Shown: in pieces, positions 225 to 20,807 of the stretch
Layout of the letters: each line of letters opens with the position of its first letter
Numbering within the stretch: the stretch's first letter is position 1
NCBI GenBank assembly: GCA_024220525.1
Contig: JAMYWO010000437.1
Location: 4,874 to 26,683, forward strand
Length of the DNA stretch: 21,810 nt
Reading direction: 5' to 3'
Source: Cochliopodium minus
Taxonomy: Eukaryota; Discosea; Himatismenida; Cochliopodiidae
The notes under the pieces: generated by a model
What the model was told of the DNA's origin: nothing
Database searches by the model: none
Seen by the model: the letters and a program-made list of their open reading frames with translations, nothing else
Translations under genes and position numbers: made by a program

Positions 225-3035
225 TTACTTTATGAAAGTAACGAAAGAAAATTTGCAAGATTTTTCGAAAGCTTCTAAATAGTTATTGGCCCCATTTTCA
301 ATCAAATAAACAGAAGATTCCATGAAATTTCTTTCGCTTTTTAAATATAATTTAAAAAATAAAAAAAAATAAAAAATAAAAAAATTTCAAGTTTTTTTAG
401 TACCAAGTTAAAAGTAAACACTCATTCAAATTAGTAGCTCCTTTTTCAACCAAGAATTTAAGTAGTTTGGGTCTTTCAACATGTGTCTTTGCAACTTTTT
501 GTTTTATTATTAATTTTTAATTTTTATTATTTTAATTTTTATTATTTCAATTTTTATTTTAATTTTATTATTTTAATTTTTATGATTTTAATTTTTTAAT
601 TTTTAATTTTTTTATTTAAATCATTTTTTATTTATACCTTCAAAAAGAGATTGGTTGAAATTGTCTCCACCAACAGAAATGAGATATTTGAGAAGATTGA
701 TGTAATCATTCTCAGTAATAGAAGCAGGGAATTTAGAATATGGGTAATTTTGAGGTTGCTTATAAGCAACTGCTTGAACCATTCCTTTAAAAAAATTTAG
801 AACAAATTAGGGTAATGTATTTTTTAAATTTTTATTTTTATTTTTTATTTAAATTTTAAATTTTTTATTTTTATTTTTTAAATTTTTTTTTTATTTCAAA
901 TTTTTTATTTTTTTTATTTTTTATTTTTTATTTTTTATTTTTCCTTACCTTTATTAAAATTTCGAGCACCATAACTCACCATGAGTTTCACAAAATCAAG
1001 ATTTCCAGCGTAACAAGAAGTCTCTAATCCCATTTCTTCAGGTAATCCCATGTTTAAAAAATTTTTTACAATTTCCTTGTTTTTGCTTTGACAGGCGAGC
1101 CTGAAAAGATTATCCCATTCCCAATTTTTGAACTCTCTGAGTCCTCTGTATGGATATTTTATATTTGAAATATAAGCCTTTATTTAAAAAAATATTTTTT
1201 ATAAAAAAAAAATCAAAAAAATTTAAAAAATATTCAAAAAAAAAAAATCAAAAAATTTTACTTTCAAAAAAAAAGTGTAAAAAAAAAAATGCAATAAATT
1301 TAAAAAAATTTTTAAATAAAAACATATTTTTTTAAAAAATTTCTAAATAAAAATTTAAAAAATAAGTAGAAAAAGAAAATTACATCAATAATGTTATTTT
1401 TCCTTTGAGAGCACGCTTCTATAAAAATGTCTCCTTGCCAATCATCATCTTGGTAATAAATGCTGTAGGCGTCATGAGCTCTCAACCCCAACTTGACTAT
1501 TTCCTCATTTCCTGATTTGAGACCTCCTGTCAACAACTGTAGGCAGCAATCAAAATTACATTTTTCTTTTTCTCGTTCCCCCCTTCTTCTAAACACTAAT
1601 AAAAAATTATTAAAATAAAAAAATTATTAAAATAAAAAAAAAATTTATAATGAAACTTTAATCTATATTTTTATTATTAATAAAAAAAAAAATTAAAATT
1701 AAAACAAATTTATTTAAAAATTTATGAAAAAAATATTAATTTTTACAAATAAGGTTCCTCAATATTCCAAATGCTCCCATGTTCGCTAATGTACCTACTG
1801 TGGTATTCAGTGCTTTTTTTTAAAAATTAATTTTTTGATATAAATTTTTTTTTTTGAAATAAAAGTAATTGTTTTTTTTTGCCAGAATCCTTTTTGATTA
1901 CTGAGTAGAAAAAAAAAATTCAAAATTTGAAAAAATAAAAAAAAAAATTTTTTTTTTTTACAAAATGAAGGAACGATGAAAGAAGGAATTCCCTTAAACT
2001 TTGGAATAGACTCAATGAGTTTGAAATATTTTCTTGACTCGCATACAGCTTTAGCAACTCCCCAATCGAAAGAAGGAGGATCGATCTTTGAAGCAAATGT
2101 CAAAGCATATTTGAAGAAGTCAAACTTTTTGTATCTCACTGATCTAAGCATCACTTCGTTTATGCCTACTCTTTCTTCTATTCCTTTCATTATTTCTTCT
2201 TCTACTATTCCCCCACATTCATATGCAAATTGAAAGATGGAGAATACGTTCTTTTTGTCAATTTTTAGTTTCTCCAAATCTACTTTTTTGGCTCCTTTTT
2301 CGATCATCATGTTTACTATCTCTTCATTTCTCGATTCAATCCCTCCTGTACAATAATTAAAAAAAACAAAAAAAAAAAAAAAGATAAATTAAATTGAAGA
2401 GATATTTTAAAAAAGGGTCATAATGATAATTGATTCTGGATTATAGTTATTGAAAAGGTGATGAGATCTTCAATTTTTTAATGAAAGAATATAATAAATT
2501 ATAATAAACACTAAACTACTCACAAAATTCCCAAATATATTAATTTTCTTTTACCATTCAATCCCAAATCAAAATTATTTGCTCCTTTCTCGATGAAATA
2601 ATTGATCAAATCCTTATTTTCATACATGCATGAAAAATATAGAGCTTCATTCAAATCTATGCGGTATTTCTCATTAGATAATAAGTAATCGATAATCTTC
2701 CTATTTCCTGATTGAATAGCTTTTTCGAATGCCAATGAATTATCATTATTTAATTTTGAAATCAAAACTTCAAATAAAACTTTATTTCCTTGTTTGGATG
2801 TATGAAGAAGAGCTTCTTCGAATTTTTTTGCTCCCATTGTTATCATTTCTTCTGCTATTCTTCTATCACCACAAATACATGCTGCGTACAATCCCAAATT
2901 GTAATTGTATTTATTTTCCTTTATTATCCTGATCATTGATTCCTTGTTTCTTTTTTTACATAATTGGACTAATTCATTTAAAATCTCTTTTTCCTTATCA
3001 ACATCAAATGTCTTCTTTCTCATTTTTTTTTTCAT
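225..3035 (-). CDS. Ankyrin-repeat-type protein A, 8 exons, 573 aa
   Basis: Exons on the minus strand, 5' to 3': 3035-2555, 2345-1962, 1812-1747, 1595-1384, 1177-949, 784-638, 494-404, 336-225. They join in phase with GT...AG borders to 1722 nt, ending in TAA at 225-227. The start is the ATG at 3035 (MKKKMRKKTFDVDKEKE). The protein is a run of divergent ankyrin-like helix pairs, for example NYFIEKGANNFDLGLN (about residues 146-160), MMIEKGAKK, FLVEKGATNLNEC and YLIENGANNYLEAFEKSC near the C-terminus. No signal peptide, membrane segment or catalytic motif is visible. This style, with GANN or GAKK after the second helix and AL.. at the next repeat, is common in large ankyrin families of protists and giant viruses; the specific role is unknown. 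The stop could instead be read as a GTAAAA donor (AAG TAA), but no further exon is visible below 225. Confidence is high for the exon chain and low for function. Confidence 0.85.
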
Positions 3036-4214
3036 ATAAAATTTTTATTTTAAATGTATTTAGATAAATCATAAGTGAAAATGAAATTTTATTTTTAATT
3101 TAAGAAGCAACATCATTGATTGTTTCCACTTTTCTATTATTGTATTGGTTACAAGTTTGAATGCAACAAATTATTTAGGATGTGATAAACAGATGGAATT
3201 TCATTTATAAATTATCTATTCAGAACAAAAAAAGAATGTCTTCTAAAAGATGTTTTAAATCAACCTTTTTTTTAAAACAAGATAAGAAAAAAAAAATAAA
3301 ATGAGGGAAAATGTTTATTCTCTTGATTTGTCAAAAAGATCTCTAACCCAAGGAATCAAAAGGAAATGAACACTCAATATCCATAAATAAAGAGGCTAGA
3401 ATGAGAATAAATAATTCCTCAATTAATTTTAGATTCCATTAATTAATTTAATAAACTATATTGAGATTAAACCAATCAAATTTATCCTTGTAAAAAACAG
3501 TATTTGGGAAAGGACTCAAAGTTATTGAACTTTAATTCGAGAAAAAAGTTTTAAAAATTTTCATTTCAAGATGTTTGTGTGGAGAAATAGAAGGAGTTGT
3601 GACAAAAAATGAAAACTACCTTAAAATATTAACTCATAACTTAATTTTTCTGAAAACATTGATAAAGTTTGTTACATCTTTAAAAAGTTTCAAGATTATC
3701 AACCAAATATTTATTTGCAAGATTAGCGCATTTTTAATTTTTAAAAAAAAATGGATAAAAATAATTTTTTCTGAAAGAAACTCAATTTGGAATTTATAAA
3801 TTTTTTGGTGACCATTAATATACTTGATTATTGTTTCAAACATTCAGAATTAATGAAATATAAGACCATTTATCTCACAATAGGCAATATTTTTTCAGAT
3901 TGCAGGAAAAAGGATCTATTTTAAAATCATTTTGATATAGGTTAAAAAGACTCAAAAATAGAAAAGAGAATAATATTTGAACAATTTGATATATAAATTT
4001 TATTATATTTTTTAACTATTGGCAATATTTAGTCAATCAAATAATAACTCATTAACCTAATTTAGGAATGAATTGTACGCATTCTGAAAAGAAATGATAA
4101 AAGGTGAATTTAATTAATTTTTAATTTCACAATGATTAGGGAGCAAAAAAATAAAAGAAAATATAAAAAAAAAACGATATTAGCTTCGACATATTTAAAA
4201 TATAAGGAAAGCAA
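3036..4214. other. Divergent intergenic region between ankyrin gene A and the RasGAP-like gene
   Basis: About 1.2 kb separates the two divergent start codons, so both promoters must lie here. The stretch is less homopolymeric than the introns. It holds two overlapping short open frames (3575-3799 plus, 3634-3843 minus) without splice partners or a recognisable family, which I do not call as genes. No tRNA or rRNA signature was found by eye. The bases just before the RasGAP ATG (tataaggaaagcaa) are A-rich. Confidence 0.55.
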
Positions 4215-6809
4215 ATGAATAAACTAATGGAGAAGAAAGGGATGAATATATCATCAAATTCATTGGATGTGAAGGAGAAGAAACAAAAGAATGATACCAA
4301 AAATAATAAGGGATTGCTTGAGAAACAAGGAGATTCTCTCGTAATGGTTTATGATGCGAGGATTTTGCTCAAAAAACTCATCCAATTGAGAGATTACATG
4401 AATACAAAGGAGATAGAAGACAAAGATAAGAGAGGCAAAGGAAATTTGTCTGTCACTGATATCCAATCAATTCTCCAACAATCAACTGATAATGATGAAT
4501 ATGATTTGATAACAGGTATTGTTTTATTTTGATTGAATGAAATTCTCATCTTTTTTTTTTTTGAAATTGAAAGAGATTCACAATTTGAAAAAGGAATTGC
4601 AAGTTGAAGTGAGACAGAATCATACTATAGAAAGAGATCTGATAAGTATGGATAAAAAAATTGGTCTGATGATTAAAAATAGAGGACAAATGAAGGTGAA
4701 TTTAATTTTTTTTTTGGGAGATTTTAAATTTAATTAATTTTGGCTTTTTTTTAATTTAATTTTTAAACTTATTTTCTTCTAATTTTTTTTTGAAAGATTC
4801 AAGGTAAAATAAGTAAGAATAAAAAAACCAAGAAAATTGAATTGGAGGGAAAACAAATACCCAATTTCAGCCATGTTCCAAAAAAGATTGAACTCTATCA
4901 AGATTTGTTCTATCTCTTACAAACAGAAACAAGATATCTCGCCAATGTTATGCATCTTGCAAAAGAGAAAGATTTCGCAGATTTGACAGACACAGTCATC
5001 CTTACTCTTTTTGGGGACTCTTTTTCGCCTCGTGAAGAGTTTTTATGCCTCAAACTTTTTCAAAATGCATTGCACATTGATTTGCAGAAGATCAAAAAAG
5101 TAACTCACTTCATCACTGGAGAATCAGTTGTCCCCAAAATGTGCATTACCTATTGCAAAAGAAAACAAGGGGTTGAATATCTCAAACACATCATTGAGCC
5201 TGTTTTGAGAGAGATTTTTCAAAAGAAAAAGTGGGATCTCGAGATCAATCCTGTCATCATCTATCAAAACTTAATAGCTGAAGAGGAGATAAGAACTGGT
5301 AAAACATCTAAACTTGTCAAGATTGTATCTGAGGAAGAAGCTTTGCAATTCAAAATTGTTCAGGAAAAATTAAACGAGAATCTCGAAGAGTTGAAATCTG
5401 CGTGCAAAGCTTTTCTTGATGTGATTCTCTATTCCATCAAGGATCTTCCTTATGGTCTTCGTTGGATCTGCAAAAATATGAAAGATTTCTGCATGAACAA
5501 GTTTCCTCAAGAAGTTGAAGAGATCTGGAGGATGGTTGGCTATTTTGTTTACTACAGATTCTTGAATATCGCGATTGTATCTCCCAATACCTTCAAATTA
5601 ATCGATCCCAAAGATATGAATGTGAATATGGCGAGGGGATTAATCCAAGTATCCAATGTCCTCCAGAATCTTTTCAATCTTGTAGAGTATGATGGAAAAG
5701 AGAAGCCATACATGCAAAGGATGAATGCATTCATACAAGAGAACATGCTTTCTGTGAAAAAATATCTCAAACAAGTATGTGATGTAGAACAACCTGAAGA
5801 GATGCTTCAAGTGAGTCAATACAACGATCTGATCCAAAGAGAAAGACCATCCATCTTGATCGGAACATTCGAGATCTGCAACATCCATCGTCTTTTGGTC
5901 GAACATCTCTCCCGAGTTGCTCCTGATCACAATGATCCCATCAGAGTCATCTTAAACGATCTCGGCGAGATTCCTCAAAAACCTAGGGAGAACAGTGACG
6001 TCCAGTTAAACTTGACCAACAGATTCAACATCAATATCGATGAGGAGACAGATATAAGCAAATTGTATAACATCACCAAGGAGCTCATCTTGCCCATTTT
6101 GAAATCCATCCCCATAGAATCTACTCATCGCAAAATAAATCTCATGTATATCCTTGAGAAGGGCATCAAATTTTCAGGCGAAACAAAAAACCAGCAACTT
6201 TCTTCACAGATCAACATTGTACTCCAAAACATCGAAAGATTGGAGAAGGAGAAGATCATTTCACATCAGGATCAATACGAAAGTTTTCTTCGTGATGTCT
6301 CCATAGATGTTTTGAATCGCAAGATCATTCGTGAGAATCAAAAGAAAGAAATAGTACGTCTTTCCAACACTTTAGAAGATCTCCGCGCTCACCAAGTCTA
6401 CCTCAAAGATCAAAAAAAGGACTATCAATCTTATTTCGAAGGAACCAAAAAGTCCGTCTACATTTCTTCAAAGTCAAAGAAAAAAAAGCAAAATAAGAAA
6501 AAACAAGTGATTACTTACAAGTTTGGTTACAAAGAACTCCTCAAACGTGGTGTTATAGTTAAATCTAGAGTACCTAAAGTGAGCCAAAACAATTGTACTT
6601 TTGTCATTTCGAGTCCTGAGCATGGCGTTTTTGATATCACCGCCAAGATCTCTGGTGTTCCTGTTGCTGAGTTGAACCTCGAGTTGGATGAGCTTTTGGA
6701 GAAGAGATACAACAACATTGAGACTTATGAAATTGATCAGTGCACTTTGGGTGTTAACATGACCATCTGGTTGATCAATCAACATTTTCTTATGGGAAAA
6801 AAGAAATGA
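4215..6809 (+). CDS. IQGAP-related RasGAP-domain protein (RasGAP plus RasGAP_C), 3 exons, 811 aa
   Basis: Exons 4215-4515, 4574-4695 and 4797-6809 join in phase to 2436 nt and end in TGA. The N-terminal third is charged and probably coiled-coil (EIHNLKKELQVEVRQNH). The RasGAP fold spans roughly residues 188-470, with FITGESVVPKM, LPYGLRWICKNMKDFC and YYRFLNIAIVSPNTF (from about 393), closely following human IQGAP1. The RasGAP C-terminal domain covers about 711-811, from GYKELLKRGVIV to LGVNMTIWLINQHF. There is no calponin-homology domain, WW or obvious IQ motif. Length and layout match the short dictyostelid proteins DGAP1 and GapA, which bind Rac and cortexillin and help organise the cell cortex and cytokinesis. 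As in IQGAPs, Thr (about residue 248, in ITGE) stands where true RasGAPs have the arginine finger, so GTPase activation is unlikely. A scaffold role under Rac-like GTPases is inferred. Confidence 0.95.
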
Positions 6810-10750: not shown

Positions 10751-10785
10751 TAAAATAAATCAAAATAAAATAAATTAGATTTTAC

Positions 10786-13700
10786 CGGACATTTCACCAA
10801 AGACAGAGCCTTCAGACAAATTAGCAACAACCATGGGATTTTCGCGATCACCTCGTTCAACACGAGCTTTACCTTCTTTGATTTTGTAAAGGTTTTCGTT
10901 GGTTTTACTTTCAAAAATGATCACTTTCTCTTTTGGAAAGTTTATTTCCGCAGCCCCCGCTGTGATTAGTCTCCAGTCTTTTTCGCTAAGTTCTTTTGCA
11001 ACTTCTGACACTGCTTTCTTTTTCATCATTGTTTTTGCTGCACTCGCAAGTGAACCTCTTAAAAAAACAAAAAATTTAAAAAAATTAAAAATTAAAAATA
11101 AAATAAAATAAAATTAAAAATTAAATTTTAAAAAAAATTGTAATTCAAAAAATAAAGAATAACATTTCAAAAAAAAAAAAAATAAAAAATAAAAAATAAA
11201 ATTTGAAAATAAATAAATAAAATCAAATTAAATTTAAATAAATTAAATTTTTTTTTTGTAGCATTACCTGGTTGGTTCTTTCAACTCTTCACCTTTCTTC
11301 AAAGACTCTTCTTTCAACTTTGAAATCCTGTAGATTTCGTGATCTTCCCAAATTTCAACAGATTTTAAAACTCTTTGAATGGTGCTGGAAGGGGAGATGC
11401 TTTCGTAGAGGAGGCTGCTGCCTGAACGGATTGTTTTGATAGAAGTGGCGAGTAGTTTCGCTTTCGTCACGTTTATCACCGTTCTTTCTTGATCCAAGTA
11501 TGTCTCATTTCCATCATCTATGAATGTCAAGTCTGTCAGATGAATACCTAATTTTGAAAAATAAAAATAAAAATGAAATTTAGAAAAGAAAGATATTTTA
11601 AAACAAATCAAATTTAAAAAAAATAATGTCAAAAATAATCATTTATTTTATCTTCCAAAAGTAATCAAAAATTAAAAATTTTAAAAAAATTAAAAAATAT
11701 GAAATTAAAAAAAACAATGATAAAAAAATTATCATTAATCTTTAAAATGTAAAAAAAAATTATTTCAATTAATCAAATAAATTATTAATGAAATTAAATT
11801 AAACAAAAAAATTGTTTATTAAAAAAAAAAACACAAAATATGAAAAATTTTGATTACTGAAAAAAAAAAAGATTTTTAAATATGAAAAATTAAATTAAAA
11901 AAAATATTACCTAAATAAGGTAACCAAGGAGACTTGTTTTTAGCAATTTCTTCTCGGTAGTTTTTAAAATTAGGCATGGGGCTCATGAGTTTGGAAAGAG
12001 ATTCGAATCTCTCTTTGTTTTCTTTGGAAACACAGGCCCAACTTCTTTTCAAACGAGAAATGGCAGAGTTGTGTAATGCTGAAAGAATTTCCATCACTCC
12101 TCCAAAGTTTCTAAGTTCTGCGCAACGAACACAAATTTCTATGAACCTAAAAAAAAAAAATTGAAAAAATTAATCTAAAATAAATTGAAAAAAAATTAAT
12201 AAACATGAAAAAAAAATGGAAATTATGAAAATTATAAAGAAATATTATATAAAAAAATAAATTATATTTAAAAAATAAAGTTAAATATAAAGTAAAAATG
12301 TATTTAAGATAAAATATTGTTTAATTAATAAAGATATTAAAAAATATTAAATAAATATTCAAAATTTAAATCAAAAACTAGATTTTAAAATAAAATAAAA
12401 CCCAAAATACTAAAGAAATTAAAAACACTAAAGACAAACGAAATTAAAAATTGGAAAAAAAAAAAAATATAAAAAAAAAAAAAAAAAAATAAAAAAAAAA
12501 ATTAATTTACTTTGAAATAATGATTCCTCTTCTTTCTGGATCCTCACCCTTTATGATCTCAGTAGCAGCCCACTGACTCATCTTGTTGAACCAATTAATG
12601 ACACCCATAGCAGCAGGACAACTCTCAGGCTTCTTGGTCCAGCTCTGTTTCAAAAACTCCCAGGGTTTGACTTTCGAGTAATTTTCGTGTTCAATGAGCG
12701 TCATTTGTTCAGCGATGGCGGAAGTAGAAAATTCCACAATGAGAGGAAAAGAAGTGATTGTTTTGAAAGTGGATTTTTTATCGATATCGACGACGTTGCT
12801 CTTTTTTCTTTCAAAGGAATACATCTGGGCGATATCTTCCATGAATTCTTTGAGGGCACCTTTTTCTCCCCAGCAGCCTCGTGAGTTGTAGTCGGTGATG
12901 AGGAGGAACATGTCGTTTTTGAAGAAGTCGTCGGTGAGGAGGAACCATCTTTCGACGATGTAGGCTACTCTCACGTGGATGTTTCTTTCGTTCTTCTCGA
13001 AATCTTCTCTTTGACATTTTTCTACTGTAACCAATTCTCCTGGTCCTGAAAATAGAAATTAACAATAAAACATTCAAAATGATCGAAATATATTTCATAA
13101 AAGATTGAAAGGAAATAATTAAAATAAAAAATTGAAAGTGGATTTCAGTGTATCAATAGGATTAATTAATAATTTTTAAACTGTTGAATTGTTTTGGATT
13201 TTTATACATTAAATTTGATTTAACATTAAATTTAATTTATTTTAAAATAATTATCCTCACCTCTGTATCTTTGCAACAATAACTGAAGAAATTGAGGAGC
13301 AGTTGTAAAACTTTGTATTGTCAACAAAACAGTATCTATCAAATCTGTGTCGGGATGAATATCTGTCATTTTTTCTATGAGTTTGTAAATGTTGGCACCT
13401 GAAAGGATCTTTTTATCTTTGTCTTCAAAGTGGATGTTGTCTTCTGTATCTTCTAAACCAAAATAATATGGTAATTTCTCAAAATCATCTTCGTTATTAT
13501 CAAAATCATTCTCTAAATCTTCCACTGTAGATACCTTATTATTTAAAAAGAATTATTAATTAATTTTTAAAATATTGTTTGATTATATTTTTATAAATAT
13601 CATTTTCATGAAATTCCATTTCGGAATCTATTCTATTTCACAAGATATTTATCGAAGAAATATTCTAGAAAGCTTCGAATAAAAATAAAATAAAAATCAA

Positions 13701-14388
13701 TTAAATTTCAGATTTAACCTGCTTGATTTTGATTTTTCTTGGTTTTGTTTCAGATGCATAAGATAATCCAAGCAATAATTCCCCTTCCACAACATCTTCG
13801 GTTGTTCTTTTTTGCAAAGTGAATCCTTCATTACAATCATCCTCTAATAAAGGTTGCAAAGGGATATCCAATTTTCCCATGAATTGAGATTTCCCCATCG
13901 ATTTCTTTGTGATCTCCAATGCCATCAACAATGGGAAGGATTCTTCGCATCTGATGTCCAATACGAACGATTCATTCCATTCTGGATTCAATACATTCTT
14001 TATTACCTTTGTCTTCAAATTATGTATCACCTCATTCTTTTTGATGTCCTTTATTTGTAATGTCGCATAGAAATTACCTAAATCAAATATATTTTTGTAA
14101 TTTTGAAGAGGAGAATTTAAAATGATGAGTGTTTTATAAATAAATTAAATTTTGAAGTAATTTGTTAGATTCATTCAGAATGTTGACATACTAAATTCAA
14201 ATTGGGATTGAAATATATTTTTATTTTTGTCGATTACCTTTCTTTCCTTTATCTGCCAACAGTCCCGTTGTTCCAAATACTAAAAATAAAAATTTAAATT
14301 AATATCCCTGGAATAGTTTCTATGTTTTCAAATAATCTAAATTTATTTTACCATTAATGATCAATTGTCCCTTTTCGAACTTTTCCAT
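10786..14388 (-). CDS. RasGEF with C2, REM, CDC25 and cyclic-nucleotide-binding domains, 3' end missing (678 codons)
   Basis: Exons on the minus strand: 14388-14352, 14279-14238, 14077-13719, 13534-13261, 13045-12511, 12146-11911, 11547-11268 and 11057-10786, all in phase. Residues about 7-135 form a C2 domain (VLNPEWNESFVLDI). Residues about 188-290 are the RasGEF N-terminal (REM) domain (ILSGANIYKLIEKM, TIQSFTTAPQFLQLLLQRY). Residues about 325-560 are the CDC25 catalytic domain (IAEQMTLIEHENYSKVKP, INWFNKMSQWAATEI, WLPYLGIHLTDLTFID). From about 600 a cyclic-nucleotide-binding fold starts and breaks off after VFGEMSG at a GTAAAA donor. The protein should load GTP onto a Ras-family GTPase, with membrane and cyclic-nucleotide inputs. 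REM-CDC25-cNB order resembles Dictyostelium GbpD; the N-terminal C2 is extra. The C2 lacks the usual aspartates at LEITKKSMGKSQFMG, so calcium binding is doubtful. One junction uses an unusual GTTAAA donor (13718). An in-frame stop just past 10786 is intron sequence. Confidence 0.93.
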
Positions 14389-14918: not shown

Positions 14919-17900
14919 ATGAAAAAAGAATTTCGAATACAGGAAATAAAGAAAATAATAGAATATGAAGAGTAATTCAATTTAAACAATCACTTCTTTC
15001 ATTTATATCACCCATTTTATTTTAGAAAACAAATAAAATGCATATATCTATGGGGATCGAGATTTCATGGATGCGAAAGAGAAGATTCAGATTATGATCT
15101 CATAATAATTGTGGATGAATGCCCATATTTCAATGAAATAAAAGTTATAAATAAAGATAATAATGATCTAACCATAATACACAAGGTAATTAAGTATTTT
15201 CCAATACACATGTGATAAAAATAACGAAAATATAAAATTTTTTTTTTGAAATAAAGGAATATTTTGAACAACTTTGGGAAGAACATTTGATATGGATAAT
15301 ACTTCTATATTTTTATCCAAAAAGGGCAATATTATTGGAGAAAGAAAATCTTTTTGAGGATAAGTTGTAAGATAAGAAAATTAACTTTTAAATTTTAATT
15401 TTAAAATTTTTTTTTAAAACTTCTCTTCACTTCTCTCTTAGAATAAACTATCCTTTTTTGAGGAAAAAGTTGTTGCAAATCACAAACCATTGCTATTCAA
15501 AAGCAAAGAGACTTTATTTCAAAGGAGATATTTTAAAATGTAAAAAAAATCTTTTGCACGGATTAAGGTTGAAAATTTTTTTCAATAAATAATACTTTTA
15601 TTTTTATCTGAAACATTCTATTATTTTATTTTATTGTTATTTTTAAAATTATTTTTTGATTAAGGATTTTATTTTTTATTTTTTATATTACAGTTCTTTA
15701 TTCTTTATATTTTCTCTATTTATTTTCAATTATAATATATTAAATATTTTTGAAGATACAAGTTGATAGTAAAACAAATGTTTGATAATGACAAAATAGA
15801 AGACTGGACAGTGGGAAACGAAATGTTCAAAGAAACTCTCCAAAAAGACTACCAAAATTGGGAAGAACTCGAAAAACAATTCAAAAAGAAATACCACGAC
15901 TACGAAGAAAACATTTTGTTCAAAGATTCTTTCAATTTGGACGGAGAATTGGTACTTAAATCTTCTCAGAATCCAAATTGTCTCAAAACTCTTTTGTACA
16001 TTGAAAAATATGGAATTGAAAAGTCAAAAAAAAAAAAAAATTTTATTTTATTTTTAGATTATTTATTTTTTTATTTTTTATTTTTTATTTTTATTTTTAT
16101 TTAATTTTTATTTTATTTTATTTATTTTATTTTGAAAAAATAATTATTTTTTAATATATTTATTTTTTATTTTTTATTTTTTATTTTATTTTTACTTTTA
16201 TTTAATTTATTTTTTTGAAAAAATTAATTTTTTATTTATTTTTATTTTTATTTTTATTTAATTTATTTTATTTTGAAAAATATTTGTTTTTTATTTATTT
16301 TTCTTTTGATTAAATTTTTTTTATTTTTATTTATTCAGGTTAGTAAGAAATTATGGTTTATATTATCACAAAGCAGGAGATTCTGTGTTGTTGCATAGAC
16401 AAAGTACTTCACCAGATAAATGTAAAAAAATAATTATTTTTCGTTTAAATTTTTTATTTATTTCATTTATTTTGTTTAAAATTTTATTTTTTTATTTTTT
16501 TTTTTGTAAAATTTTTTTGTAAAATTTTTTTTTATTTTTTATTTTTAAAGGTGAAATAGTAAGAGAATGCCAACATTTGGTGATAAACAAGGGAAAGGTT
16601 GTTTGTAAAGGTGTTGATAATATTCTTCCATTTGAAGAGTCCTTTCAATACAATTACATCACTCCCAAACTTGAAGGTCTTTCTGTTATATTGTATCACG
16701 ACAAAGGTTAAAAATAAATTGATTAAAATAAAAAATAAAATGAAAAAAATAAAAATAAATAAATAAAATAAATAAAATAAATAAATGAATAAAAATAAAT
16801 AAATAAAATAAAAACAAATAAATAAATATAAATATAATAAATTAAAAAAAAATAAAAAAAATAAAAACAAATAATTAAATAAATAAATGAATAAATAAAT
16901 AAATAAATAAATAAAAACAAAAAAAATATTTAAGTAAAAAAAATGTTTAAATAAAAATAATAATTATTAAAAGATGAATGGAAAGTATGCACTTCTAAAA
17001 CATTGGACGGAAGCGAGAGTATAAACGAATATAAAATTTTTCACAACAAAACAAACAATCAAACAAAGAAATTCTCTGTCTCAAATTTGTTTTGGGACAT
17101 TTTCAAAGAAAAAAAGATGATATTACCTAACAACACAGAAAAATACAATGAACGATGCTTTCTATTTAAATTGTTCAGCACAAAATTAAATGATGAAGAA
17201 AAAAAATTTGATGAAAAAAATTTCCAAGAAAATTTTCATTTCAAAAAAAATTTTAAAAAAAATTTTTTTCATTTTTTTTACGATGATCTCATTTTTCTCC
17301 ATTCTACCAACCTCAATTCTTTTAATGGAATGGATAGGAGCCAGCAGGAAGTTTTTTGTGTGGAGCATGATTGGAAAATGTTGCCCCTTTTCACTAACTT
17401 TAAGGATACAAATCAAATCATAGATTTTTCAAACAAGATGCCTCTCAATAATACTTTTGAAAATGTAAAAAACTTTTTTCTTTATTTTATTTTTATATTT
17501 ATTTTTTTTATTTTTATCTTTATTTTTTTTTTAATTTTTAATTTTTAATTTTTAATTTTAATTTTTTATTTTGGAAGATACAATGTGTTTCCGGTTTCGT
17601 TTTAGAAAATGAGAAGGGAGAAAAAAGAAAAATAGATGGAATCTCGTTCAAATCAATAATAAATTTGAGACCAAGGAAATTCGAAGAAGAAAAAGTAATT
17701 AACAAGGTAAATAAATAAATTTTTATTAATTTTATTTTTATTAATTTTTTTGTGAAAAAAAGAAATACTTTTGGGATTTAATTAGATATAACCACGAAGA
17801 CCAATCTTTCGTTTTTAAACTAGAAAAAGATCTTCAAATTGTTTATTACGAAATAAAAACTTTGTATGACGACTTAAACGAAAAAATAATGCAGACTTTT

Positions 17901-18168
17901 CTTCTCCTTAAAGAAAGTAGCCAAGACAAAAAATCTTTCTCCAAAAATTCAAAGAAATATTCTTTTTGGATTATTTTACATACAATATTTAATGGTTTAA
18001 AAAAATTTTTTTTTTTATTTTTTTTTAAATTAAATTTTTTAAAAAGGAGTATCTTTGGTTGATTGCTGGAAAAATATTACAACCAACAGCCTGAAAAAGT
18101 TGTTTGATGCAATGAAAAAAGATGTGGAAGTGGATCAAAAGATAAAAAATAATTTATTTAATTTTTAA
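14919..18168 (+). CDS. RlaP-like pol-beta nucleotidyltransferase fused to T4 Rnl1-like RNA ligase, 11 exons, 642 aa
   Basis: Exons 14919-14971, 15026-15185, 15257-15366, 15442-15567, 15756-16022, 16339-16421, 16551-16706, 16974-17464, 17578-17706, 17763-17994 and 18047-18168 join in phase to 1929 nt. Residues 1 to about 240 are a pol-beta-type nucleotidyltransferase: YLWGSRFHG (G28-S29), EDSDYDLIIIVDE (D40, D42), probable third acid D65 in NNDLTII, then helical KKNLLHGLRYKLIVKQMF. This pattern fits the RlaP family (RNA repair pathway DNA polymerase beta family). Residues about 240-525 resemble T4 RNA ligase 1: VRECQHLVI, motif I ITPKLEGLSVILY (K306 the predicted adenylated lysine), VCTSKTLDG, RCFLFKLFST, VSGFVLENEKGEKRKIDG. 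Residues 526-642 form a helical C-terminus. The combination suggests adding nucleotides to, and sealing or sensing, broken RNA ends; this is inferred. Several ligase residues essential in T4 are changed (see findings). A Phe/Lys/Asn-rich insertion of about 30 residues (17196-17280) interrupts the ligase. An exon-like stretch after the stop is unexplained. Confidence 0.85.
16724..16920. repeat. AAAT/AAATA simple repeat in an intron
   Basis: The seventh intron of the RlaP-ligase gene (16707-16973) is largely made of 4-5 bp A-rich units such as aaataaataaat. It produces long but meaningless Phe/Tyr/Leu/Ile-rich open frames on the minus strand. It holds no gene. Confidence 0.8.
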
Positions 18169-18497: not shown

Positions 18498-20677
18498 TTA
18501 TAAAAATATGTTTACCCAATTTTTATTTTCGTAAAACAAAAGGGACAGAGACAACAATTCAGGAAAATCATATTTCAAAGCTTTGTGAGCACAACGATCA
18601 TGTTTATTATCATCAAAGCCAAAAGCAAAAAACAAGAAAAGAGAGTCCAAATTGTTCCTCACTTTATTTTTTTGACACAAATAATGAGCGGCACACTTGT
18701 AAGGAAAAGGATAACCGTTCTTTCTTTCACAATATTGATCTTTTATATTGAGATCCGCTTTTGTGTTGATTAACAACATGAGAACTGAAATATTTATGTT
18801 ATTGTTGGAGATGGTGAGGTTGTGTAGGCAGGTTTGACGACTTTTTTTACCGCTGTATGAGTCTTGGATGTTGAGATCTATTTTGTGTTCGAGAATAACC
18901 TTTAGTATCTCTATGCTTGGATCCTTTTTGTGGAGAAATTGATGCAAAACAGTTTCACTAAAAAAAAATAAAATAATAATAAAATATTATTAAAATAATA
19001 TTCAAAATAAAAATTAAAATCAAAATTAAATTAAAATCAAAGTACTATTTTTTTTACTTTTTGTTATTTATTGTTGTAATGTCATTTTTGAGATTGATGA
19101 TGTACTTTAAAATTTCGGGAGTGGCATTGCTATTCAAAGCGTACATTTTGGCTAAATTGCTCTTTTCAATAGTAACAACTTTAGGATCAGCCTGGTTTTC
19201 TATCATAAACTTTATTCTATAATAAAAAATAAATAAAAAATAAATAAAAATTTAAATAAGAAAAAAATTAAAGATTTTAAAAAATAATAAAAATCTTAAA
19301 ATAAATTCAAAAATATTTAAAAAAATAAAAATGAATAAAAAATAAATTTTTTTTTTACATTTCAAATTTAAAGTTGGGATTAGAAATGTAATGATGAAGG
19401 TAAGTGTAATTGTCTGCAGTGATGTACTTTAAATCCACGCCGCGATTTAAAAAAAAAGAGAAGAGATCCTTGTCAAAATTAAAAGTACTCAACAAATAAT
19501 GCAAACAAGTTTTCCCAAATTCGTCTTTGAGGTTTAAATCACAGTTGTTTTCGGAGAATAATTTAAGAAATTCAATTTCAAATTTCTCGTTTGAACAAAG
19601 TAAATGAACATACCCTCTTTTTTTGTGGTTTATGTCGCTTGTTAAATCCTTGTAGTTTGGTTTGAGTTCAACTAATCTTTTTACCAATTTTTCTGTAAGA
19701 GGCATTTGGAGGATGTGGCCTGCTATTGTGTATCCCCAATCCTTGTCCTGATAGTTTACATCTATCTTTTATTTTTACAATAAAAAAAAACAAATTTAAT
19801 TATAAATAATTTTATCTTTTATTTAATTGTATATAATTAATCAAAATCAAAAAATAATTTAAAAATAATTTTTTTTTAAAAAATAATTTAACAAAATTTA
19901 AAATAATAATAAAAAAATAATTTTTACAAATTTAACAATATTTATAAAATAAAAAAAATAATTTTTAATAATTTACGTTTTGATTTAGGAAAAGTTCAAG
20001 AACTTCATCTGAAACAATTTTATTTTTGAAAAATGACATCAAAATTTGATCAAGACAATTTTTGTTGCTATTTCTTTCTAAAAAAAGTTTAATGATCAAG
20101 GGACTTATTTTTTGTTTGCAGTTTGAGGCAAATTTCTGGAAAGGAAGTTCTCCATTGTTGTTGGAAATGTTGATATCTAAATCTTTTTCTTTCAGAACTT
20201 CTTCGATAACAGTCAAATCTGGGTAGTTTAACTAAAAACGAAAAAAATGTAAATTAATCATTTTATTTTATTAAATTCGAAATTTCAGATTATATTTTTT
20301 TTTTTTCTTAAATTCAAAAACAATTTCTTATTTTTAAAATTCTTTACCATCAACATGAATGATGTATTCCCTTGTTTATCTTGCACGTTTATATCTGCCT
20401 TGTATTCCAACATGGCCATTATAACATCCAGATCATGAGTTCTTTTGCCAGATAGAATATGGAAAGGAGATTTGCCATCATTATCAAGGGCATTCACATT
20501 TATTTTTTTACTTAGTAGTCCTTTTATAATGTCTAAATTGGGTTTTTCTGTTATACCACACATATGATGAAGATAATTCTTATTCGCAATATCTTTCCAT
20601 TCTATATTGATGGAATTTTCTATCTGTAAATATATCCCTCTATCATTCCTTTTCAATTTAAGGAGATTTGCATTCAT
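18498..20677 (-). CDS. Ankyrin-repeat protein B, 5 exons, 536 aa
   Basis: Exons on the minus strand: 20677-20348, 20231-19977, 19765-19359, 19216-19058 and 18957-18498. They join in phase to 1611 nt with TAA at 18498. The start is ATG at 20677 (MNANLLKLKRNDRG). Ankyrin repeats are clear and closer to the consensus than in gene A: INVNALDNDGKSPFHIL and ADINVQDKQGNTSFMLM (about residues 70-110), CDLNLKDEFGKTCLHYLL, IDLNIQDSYSGK, ADLNIKDQYCERKNGYP. The splice joins restore repeats exactly, for example FLNQN plus IDVNYQDKDWGYT, and TTINNKN plus ETVLHQFL. No kinase, F-box, membrane segment or other partner domain is visible. Such proteins usually act as protein-binding scaffolds; the partner is unknown. 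It is convergent with the RlaP-ligase gene (330 bp between stops) and in tandem with gene C, whose stop is 130 bp upstream of this start. Confidence 0.87.
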
Positions 20678-20807
20678 TAAAATTTAGATTCAATTTTATT
20701 TTTATATATATTTTTTGTATTAAATTTCTATTTTTCTTTGAAAATAATAATATTTAATAAATAATTAAAAAAAGTATTTGAGAAAATAAAAAGTTTTTGA
20801 GAAATTC
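20678..20807. other. Short spacer between tandem ankyrin genes C and B
   Basis: Only 130 bp separate the stop of gene C from the ATG of gene B on the same strand, so the terminator of one and the promoter of the other are compressed here. A run tatatatattttttg-like on the plus strand is the only notable text. Confidence 0.4.

Follow-up and report, generated by a model that had tools for sequence, protein, structure and literature searches.

The window analysed here, a 21,810-nucleotide stretch of the Cochliopodium minus genome, lies on contig C426 of a 44.65-Mb, 598-contig genome. Its plus strand carries at 14919-18168 an intron-rich gene that comparison at the sequence level confirmed as a genuine two-domain fusion, in which an RlaP-like nucleotidyltransferase (NTase) precedes a module resembling T4 RNA ligase 1 (Rnl1). 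The gene is built as follows (coordinates are those of the window; aa, amino acids):

14919-18168, plus strand: whole gene, 641 aa, 11 exons; in-phase translation, with spliced self-alignment recovering identical exons
14919-14971, 15026-15185, 15257-15363, 15442-15567, 15756-16022, 16339-16421, plus strand: exons 1-6
16551-16706, 16974-17464, 17578-17706, 17763-17994, 18047-18168, plus strand: exons 7-11, stop included
15756-16022, plus strand: exon 5, aa 149-237, coding for the last ~57 residues of the NTase and the beginning of the ligase half, by exon translation and family models

All ten introns are GT-AG, measure 52-316 bases and are far richer in A+T (92.2%; 7.8% GC) than the coding sequence (71.9%; 28% GC); A+T across 19 sampled gene regions of the same genome is 73.8%. 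Introns of Anaeramoeba ignava have a similar A+T content, 91.86% in a genome of 80.65% A+T (PMC11550330). At the gene's base composition, 641 stop-free codons in a row would arise by chance with a probability of ~1e-27 to 1e-30, a rough bound that overstates the case because the exons had been selected for openness. An earlier note, made from the letters alone, had given these coordinates and joined the eleven exons in phase, as translation and the introns bear out; its single open frame also stands, although its length of 642 aa had counted the stop. The same two-part protein recurs at other loci of the genome in spliced alignments with the window protein as query.

The note had proposed RNA-seq reads crossing the 16022/16339 junction as a check on the fusion. 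The two halves do belong to one polypeptide, but the join lies within exon 5 and not only across the intron at 16023-16338: LKTLLYIEKYGIEK, encoded in exon 5, matches the N-terminal end of C45b, a stand-alone ligase from the same genome. Exon 5 thus codes for both domain edges, which makes the fusion independent of any intron call and makes RNA-seq reads over 16022/16339 less necessary. Among the 11 fused loci found in this genome, a single modelled exon covers the stretch from -15 to +20 residues around the junction in six (the window, C33, C45f, C2n, C549 and C1n), and a raw 518-aa open frame spans it at C321; at C251, C26, C50 and C159 a modelled exon ends near the junction, so that fusion there depends on intron calls. 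We therefore rejected a division into two separate genes near 16022-16339, and the proposed eukaryotic, intron-rich fusion of an NTase with an Rnl1-like half in one gene was upheld.

The NTase half comprises the following features, with conservation counted over 14 members from this genome and 9 from phages:

14919-15924, plus strand: NTase half, aa 1 to ~205 (exons 1-4 and the first part of exon 5), from PF18765, phrog_388 and full-length alignment with phage NTases
15054-15059, plus strand: G28-S29, kept in 14/14 own-genome and 9/9 phage members
15090-15098, plus strand: metal ligands D40-x-D42, kept in 14/14 own-genome and 9/9 phage members
15165-15167, plus strand: D65, at the third-carboxylate position in the NTase alignment

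This half scores 33 bits against the Pfam Polbeta model PF18765 (cut-off 26.9), carries the G-S / D-x-D motif and matches phrog_388 over aa 17-244 (E 5.8e-5). The phrog_388 profile matched all five NTase sequences scanned (alignment A2) and spans RlaP, since it also picks up loci of the RlaP family (PF10127) in the same genome. The window protein itself gave no PF10127 match at E<=1 in a Pfam search; two of four paralogues scored 13.6 and 15.0 bits, with no score reported for the other two, and the relative in XacN1 scored 13.9 (cut-off 23). Nevertheless, the RlaP-type palm (G-S, D-x-D) and a downstream helical region with K...H..R are present and align with the RlaP protein at C414 of this genome, and a profile of 23 NTases compared one-to-one with a profile built from four RlaP fragments of this genome matched over 135 columns of palm and helical core with E 3.1e-7, against E 0.47 in a control comparison of NTase and Rnl1 profiles. 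The pol-beta signature and KNLLHGLR region that had been noticed earlier were thus found in place (the sequence reads KKNLLHGLR), and the RlaP-like assignment drawn from them stands on motifs and profile comparison but not on Pfam score. On these profiles, the NTase half is RlaP-like and grouped with phage NTases, yet by score it is not Pfam RlaP. MntA, aminoglycoside NTases and HalB were rejected as the NTase class, their matches being restricted to the active-site stretch. RlaP genes with PF10127 matches occur at four further loci (L028 on C314, L029 on C253, L030 on C414 and L031 on C4), where no ligase half was noticed; the frames of C414 and C4 point to two RlaP-like domains in tandem.

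The closest full-length relatives of this half are NTases of large phages, to which it aligns with 24-32% identity, keeping 14 of 22 columns invariant across nine phage NTases. These relatives (phrog_388; for instance Bacillus phage G gp109 and XacN1 ORF208) share its G-S, D-x-D and K...H..R...Q helical region but stand alone, whereas the window NTase is fused and eukaryotic. With the window NTase as query, 2 of 50,697 phage records matched; with the viral NTase L063 (whose frame lacks a clear start), 30 of the 50,697 did so, each covering 80% or more of the query, and 2 of 72,556 plasmids also matched. The NTase alignment located five loci in viral contigs and a second alignment seven, two of them new. 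The NTase was a stand-alone gene in all seven viral contigs examined, in the four phage genomes examined out of the 30 (201-236 aa), and in XacN1 and LR756502; a scan of genome contigs gave two short NTase genes, 105 and 110 aa long. In phage vB_BsuS_PJN02 (L074, 2938-6022) the NTase stands alone, and the second gene after it in the downstream direction is annotated as an RNA ligase.

In the ligase half, catalytic positions could be read from the alignment with Rnl1 (T4 Rnl1 numbering for the residues named):

15982-18165, plus strand: Rnl1-like pseudo-ligase half, from ~aa 225, by hhalign against nine phage Rnl1
16571-16573, plus strand: R54 position, Q
16667-16678, plus strand: motif I, K-L-E-G; K99 and G102 kept, D101 replaced by E
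17168-17170, plus strand: motif III, E159 replaced by K
17590-17592, plus strand: motif IV, E227 replaced by S
17629-17637, plus strand: motif V, K240 kept, K242 replaced by D

Homology to the T4 RNA ligase 1 / RM378 family is clear at the profile level. Aligned alone with nine phage Rnl1 (T4 Rnl1, RM378, LR756508, SYP, phiPMW, HM1, D69 and two from NTase-bearing records), the window half gave E 5.9e-7 over 322 columns, which take in the C-terminal region, against a best E of 0.16 in 20 shuffles; the 11 fused halves together gave E 6.5e-31 over 355 columns. Pfam and PDB sequence searches with the ligase half gave nothing useful, and the RNA ligase family PF09511 was not matched by the window protein at E<=1, the locus lying outside the 11 PF09511 places of the genome. 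That null is partly uninformative, as an intact ligase of the same genome had no hmmscan match though its exon scored 32 bits. The suggested check against PF10127 and PF09511 therefore reported neither family for the window protein.

Despite this homology, the active site is degraded. The earlier note had the second half following T4 RNA ligase 1 motif by motif, a claim that fails at R54, D101, E159, E227 and K242, although its KLEG does align at the motif I adenylation lysine K99. The window copy keeps only 5 of the 18 columns invariant in the nine phage Rnl1, against 13-17 in eight stand-alone ligases from this genome; the first five fused copies modelled keep 5-6, and all eleven range from 1 (C2n, with 10 gaps) to 10 (C159). 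The complete set of seven core residues (K99, D101, G102, E159, E227, K240 and K242) occurs in 0/11 fused copies, 9/9 phage Rnl1 and 7/8 own stand-alone ligases. The eighth, C223, misses only E227 through a splice-model artefact, its open frame reading PEGFVV; KxDG and E159 are kept in all eight. Among the eleven fused copies, K99 persists in four (one of them C251, where the motif I call is unreliable), E159 in one, E227 in two and KxDG in none. Some have retained the lysine and lost the aspartate (KLEG in the window, KLGG in C321, KVNG in C50), others the reverse (MIDG in C26, HLDG in C159, DYDG in C1n); the R54 position of C50 may be one residue off in the alignment (ECRNG). At C251 itself (L026, reverse strand, ~4150-4660), the motif I exon lies in a broken frame, through decay or assembly error.

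Residues at these motifs matter in T4 Rnl1. Superposition of a viral RLIG1 on T4 Rnl1 suggested that Mg2+ binding involves the motif I aspartate, the glutamates of motifs III and IV and the motif V lysine, and the viral enzyme lost activity when motifs Ia, III, IIIa and V were mutated, though not necessarily all of it (PMC11494293). Because core residues are missing in the window copy and, variously combined, in the ten other fused copies, an active ligase within the fused polypeptide is not supported by its predicted sequence.

The fused loci number at least 11 in computed models: C426 (the window), C321, C33, C251, C45, C2, C26, C549, C50, C159 and C1. At C3, C120 (near a contig end) and C169, an NTase was found where no ligase half was seen. 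Family searches used the window protein, C251, the NTase half of C321 and phrog_388 as queries and ran exon by exon, so that locus counts are lower bounds; the paralogue models drew on a profile that combined five fused copies, NTase-only sequences and three intact ligases. Left out were two stand-alone ligases, C214 for its short model and C1 because most of it was masked, and the NTase locus C214n (score 38). Rnl1-type PF09511 matches lie at ten loci (L032-L041: C2, C531, C400, C14, C214, C8, C1, C45, C223 and C118), which means that candidate enzymes for sealing in trans exist in this genome, and the eight modelled stand-alone ligases form about three tree groups.

The earlier note had called for a phylogeny to show the origin of the fusion. 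Five of the 11 fused ligase halves were placed in a tree and grouped with the own stand-alone ligases C8, C45b and C118 (94/92), on long branches flagged by the program; NTase trees were weak and left the fused NTase halves unresolved. Import of a ready-made phage fusion was rejected as unsupported, given the stand-alone NTase of all phage and viral records examined and the grouping of these five ligase halves. The likeliest order of events, we infer, is that a phage-type NTase joined an Rnl1-type ligase of the lineage's own, the family spread and the ligase half decayed. The NTase at C3 (L025, reverse strand, ~2536-3313), a stand-alone gene with introns, grouped with the phage sequence L063 (95/78) within a phage clade (95/95) in a 23-row tree, and may possibly represent a separate, more recent phage-to-eukaryote transfer.

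What might such a protein do? The NTase residues G-S and D-x-D are kept throughout the family and the full ligase core in no fused copy. That the two active sites have fared so differently speaks for a functional NTase carried on a scaffold of ligase origin. We consider it probable, if only just, that the protein is a template-independent RNA-end NTase carrying a catalytically dead T4-Rnl1-type ligase as an RNA-binding platform, with sealing left to separate ligases. The pseudo-ligase half, with its retained core and Rnl1-type C-terminal region, would grip a cleaved RNA, for which the tRNA anticodon arm is the Rnl1 precedent, and present its 3' end to the N-terminal NTase. The NTase would then add one or a few nucleotides to that end, assuming both activity and an RNA substrate, and the extended RNA could be sealed in trans by an intact Rnl1-type ligase or left tagged. 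For RlaP, the predicted role is to put back, alongside RNA ligases, the nucleotides that cleaved RNAs have lost (PMC7824862). In favour of the proposal, a separate PF09511 ligase accompanies the NTase in 7/13 phage or viral records searched (3/7, 0/2 and 4/4, the last four hand-picked from the 30 L063 matches). In the ligase half, moreover, the fold seems retained and the site lost, since conserved hydrophobic positions are kept in 287/321 cells of ten fused copies (C2n left out as incomplete) and catalytic identities in 28/79.

Several observations weigh against this proposal. Decay is uneven, with C159 keeping 10/18 invariant columns and C50 8/18 where the stand-alone minimum is 13. The window copy retains K99 and K240, and C50, whose motif I reads KVNG, retains K99, E227, K240 and K242; KxNG is found in some tRNA ligases. 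Some calls shift with the alignment (E159 in C33, K240/K242 in C321), although no alignment made any fused copy complete. The contrast between hydrophobic positions and catalytic identities is overstated, as it compares residue class with identity. On the NTase side, the third carboxylate is acidic (D/E) in 7/14 own-genome members, N in 5/14, Q in 1/14 and a gap in 1/14, and N in 8/9 and S in 1/9 phage members; catalysis by members and phage relatives with N is uncertain because the carboxylate is replaced, though the window protein has D65. The count of records that pair NTase and ligase comes without control for the large-phage base rate and includes viral contigs that may be fragments. The paralogue models are computed and not transcript-based, and no close paralogue pair suited to a selection test was found among the family copies. 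Finally, RNA ligase 2 of another protist, Diplonema, has been proposed to work as a ligase although its motifs are rewired; this relative has an unusual ATP pocket but differs in belonging to the Rnl2 family and being predicted to be an RNA ligase, and the abstract mentions no NTase partner (PMC4599027).

The retained motif I and motif V lysines (KLEG, K240) and homology across nearly the whole length of Rnl1 would favour a bifunctional enzyme that first extends the RNA and afterwards does its own sealing, as the earlier note had proposed. The five substitutions in the window copy and the lack of a complete core in any of the 11 fused copies make this unlikely, and we give it the least credence of the readings considered. 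Scarcely more probable is a family of fusions turning into pseudogenes with neither half functional, which would account for ligase residues lost in differing combinations and for the broken C251 exon but would sit poorly with 641 open codons across 11 exons and NTase residues kept in 14/14 members.

Two other readings keep the NTase active. Polbeta NTases include known sensors, and the protein might be an immune or stress sensor whose pseudo-ligase binds cleaved RNA ends and activates the NTase to make a signal nucleotide or tag foreign RNA, paralogue diversity then reflecting conflict with phages, viruses or bacteria. The dispersal and high divergence of the fused copies, at least 11 in number, the phage-related NTase and the PADLOC candidate-defence NTase models (PDC-S09), which match 8/8 NTases weakly over the active-site stretch, are consistent with this; we nonetheless regard it as unlikely, since, of the relatives found, the closest are proteins of large phages with kinship to repair NTases, and a Pfam search of the protein found no known signalling-pathway domain. 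Somewhat more doubtful is an MntA-like adenylylation of proteins or small molecules, with the ligase remnant as a protein-binding module. MntA antitoxins are the best solved-structure profile matches (5yep, E 1.4e-6), and the NCBIfam MntA model scores 30 bits (cut-off 60) over the active-site stretch, but such matches are limited to about the first 60 residues, whereas full-length relatives are phage NTases and, more distantly, RlaP.

Elsewhere in the window, C2, RasGEF and cyclic-nucleotide-binding domains are encoded left of the fusion gene (10775-14144, minus strand) by exons that possibly form a single gene, and the longest frame listed, of 671 codons, encodes RasGAP and RasGAP_C (4794-6809, plus strand). 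Ankyrin-repeat matches occurred in all three frames tested (2520-3041, 18498-18983 and 20285-20680, minus strand), on both sides of the window; those right of the fusion gene are its neighbours there.

The RNA ligase and NTase RNA-repair literature, in the parts available, describes no fusion of an NTase with Rnl1 (PMC9503650, PMC7824862, PMC6514570). Literature searches for a pseudo-ligase or inactive RNA ligase turned up none. Pseudo-enzymes that keep a fold and lose its chemistry are familiar among kinases and, to our knowledge, hardly described among RNA ligases. The founding RlaP paper, by Burroughs and Aravind in 2016, reportedly describes how repair systems spread to microbial eukaryotes, and such a fusion may therefore have been mentioned before.

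More generally, we tentatively entertain, as a possibility short of probable, a lineage-expanded family in which an Rnl1-type ligase captured a phage-derived NTase, lost sealing and became an RNA-end reader, its paralogues serving to tag RNA ends or to sense damage, each adapted to a cleaved RNA of its own. A genome that holds at least 11 fusions alongside intact stand-alone ligases amounts to a natural experiment separating recognition of broken RNA from sealing. The fusion makes the predicted role of RlaP-like NTases, restoration of lost nucleotides, testable in a single polypeptide, and the family hints at an unrecognised means of marking or repairing broken RNA.

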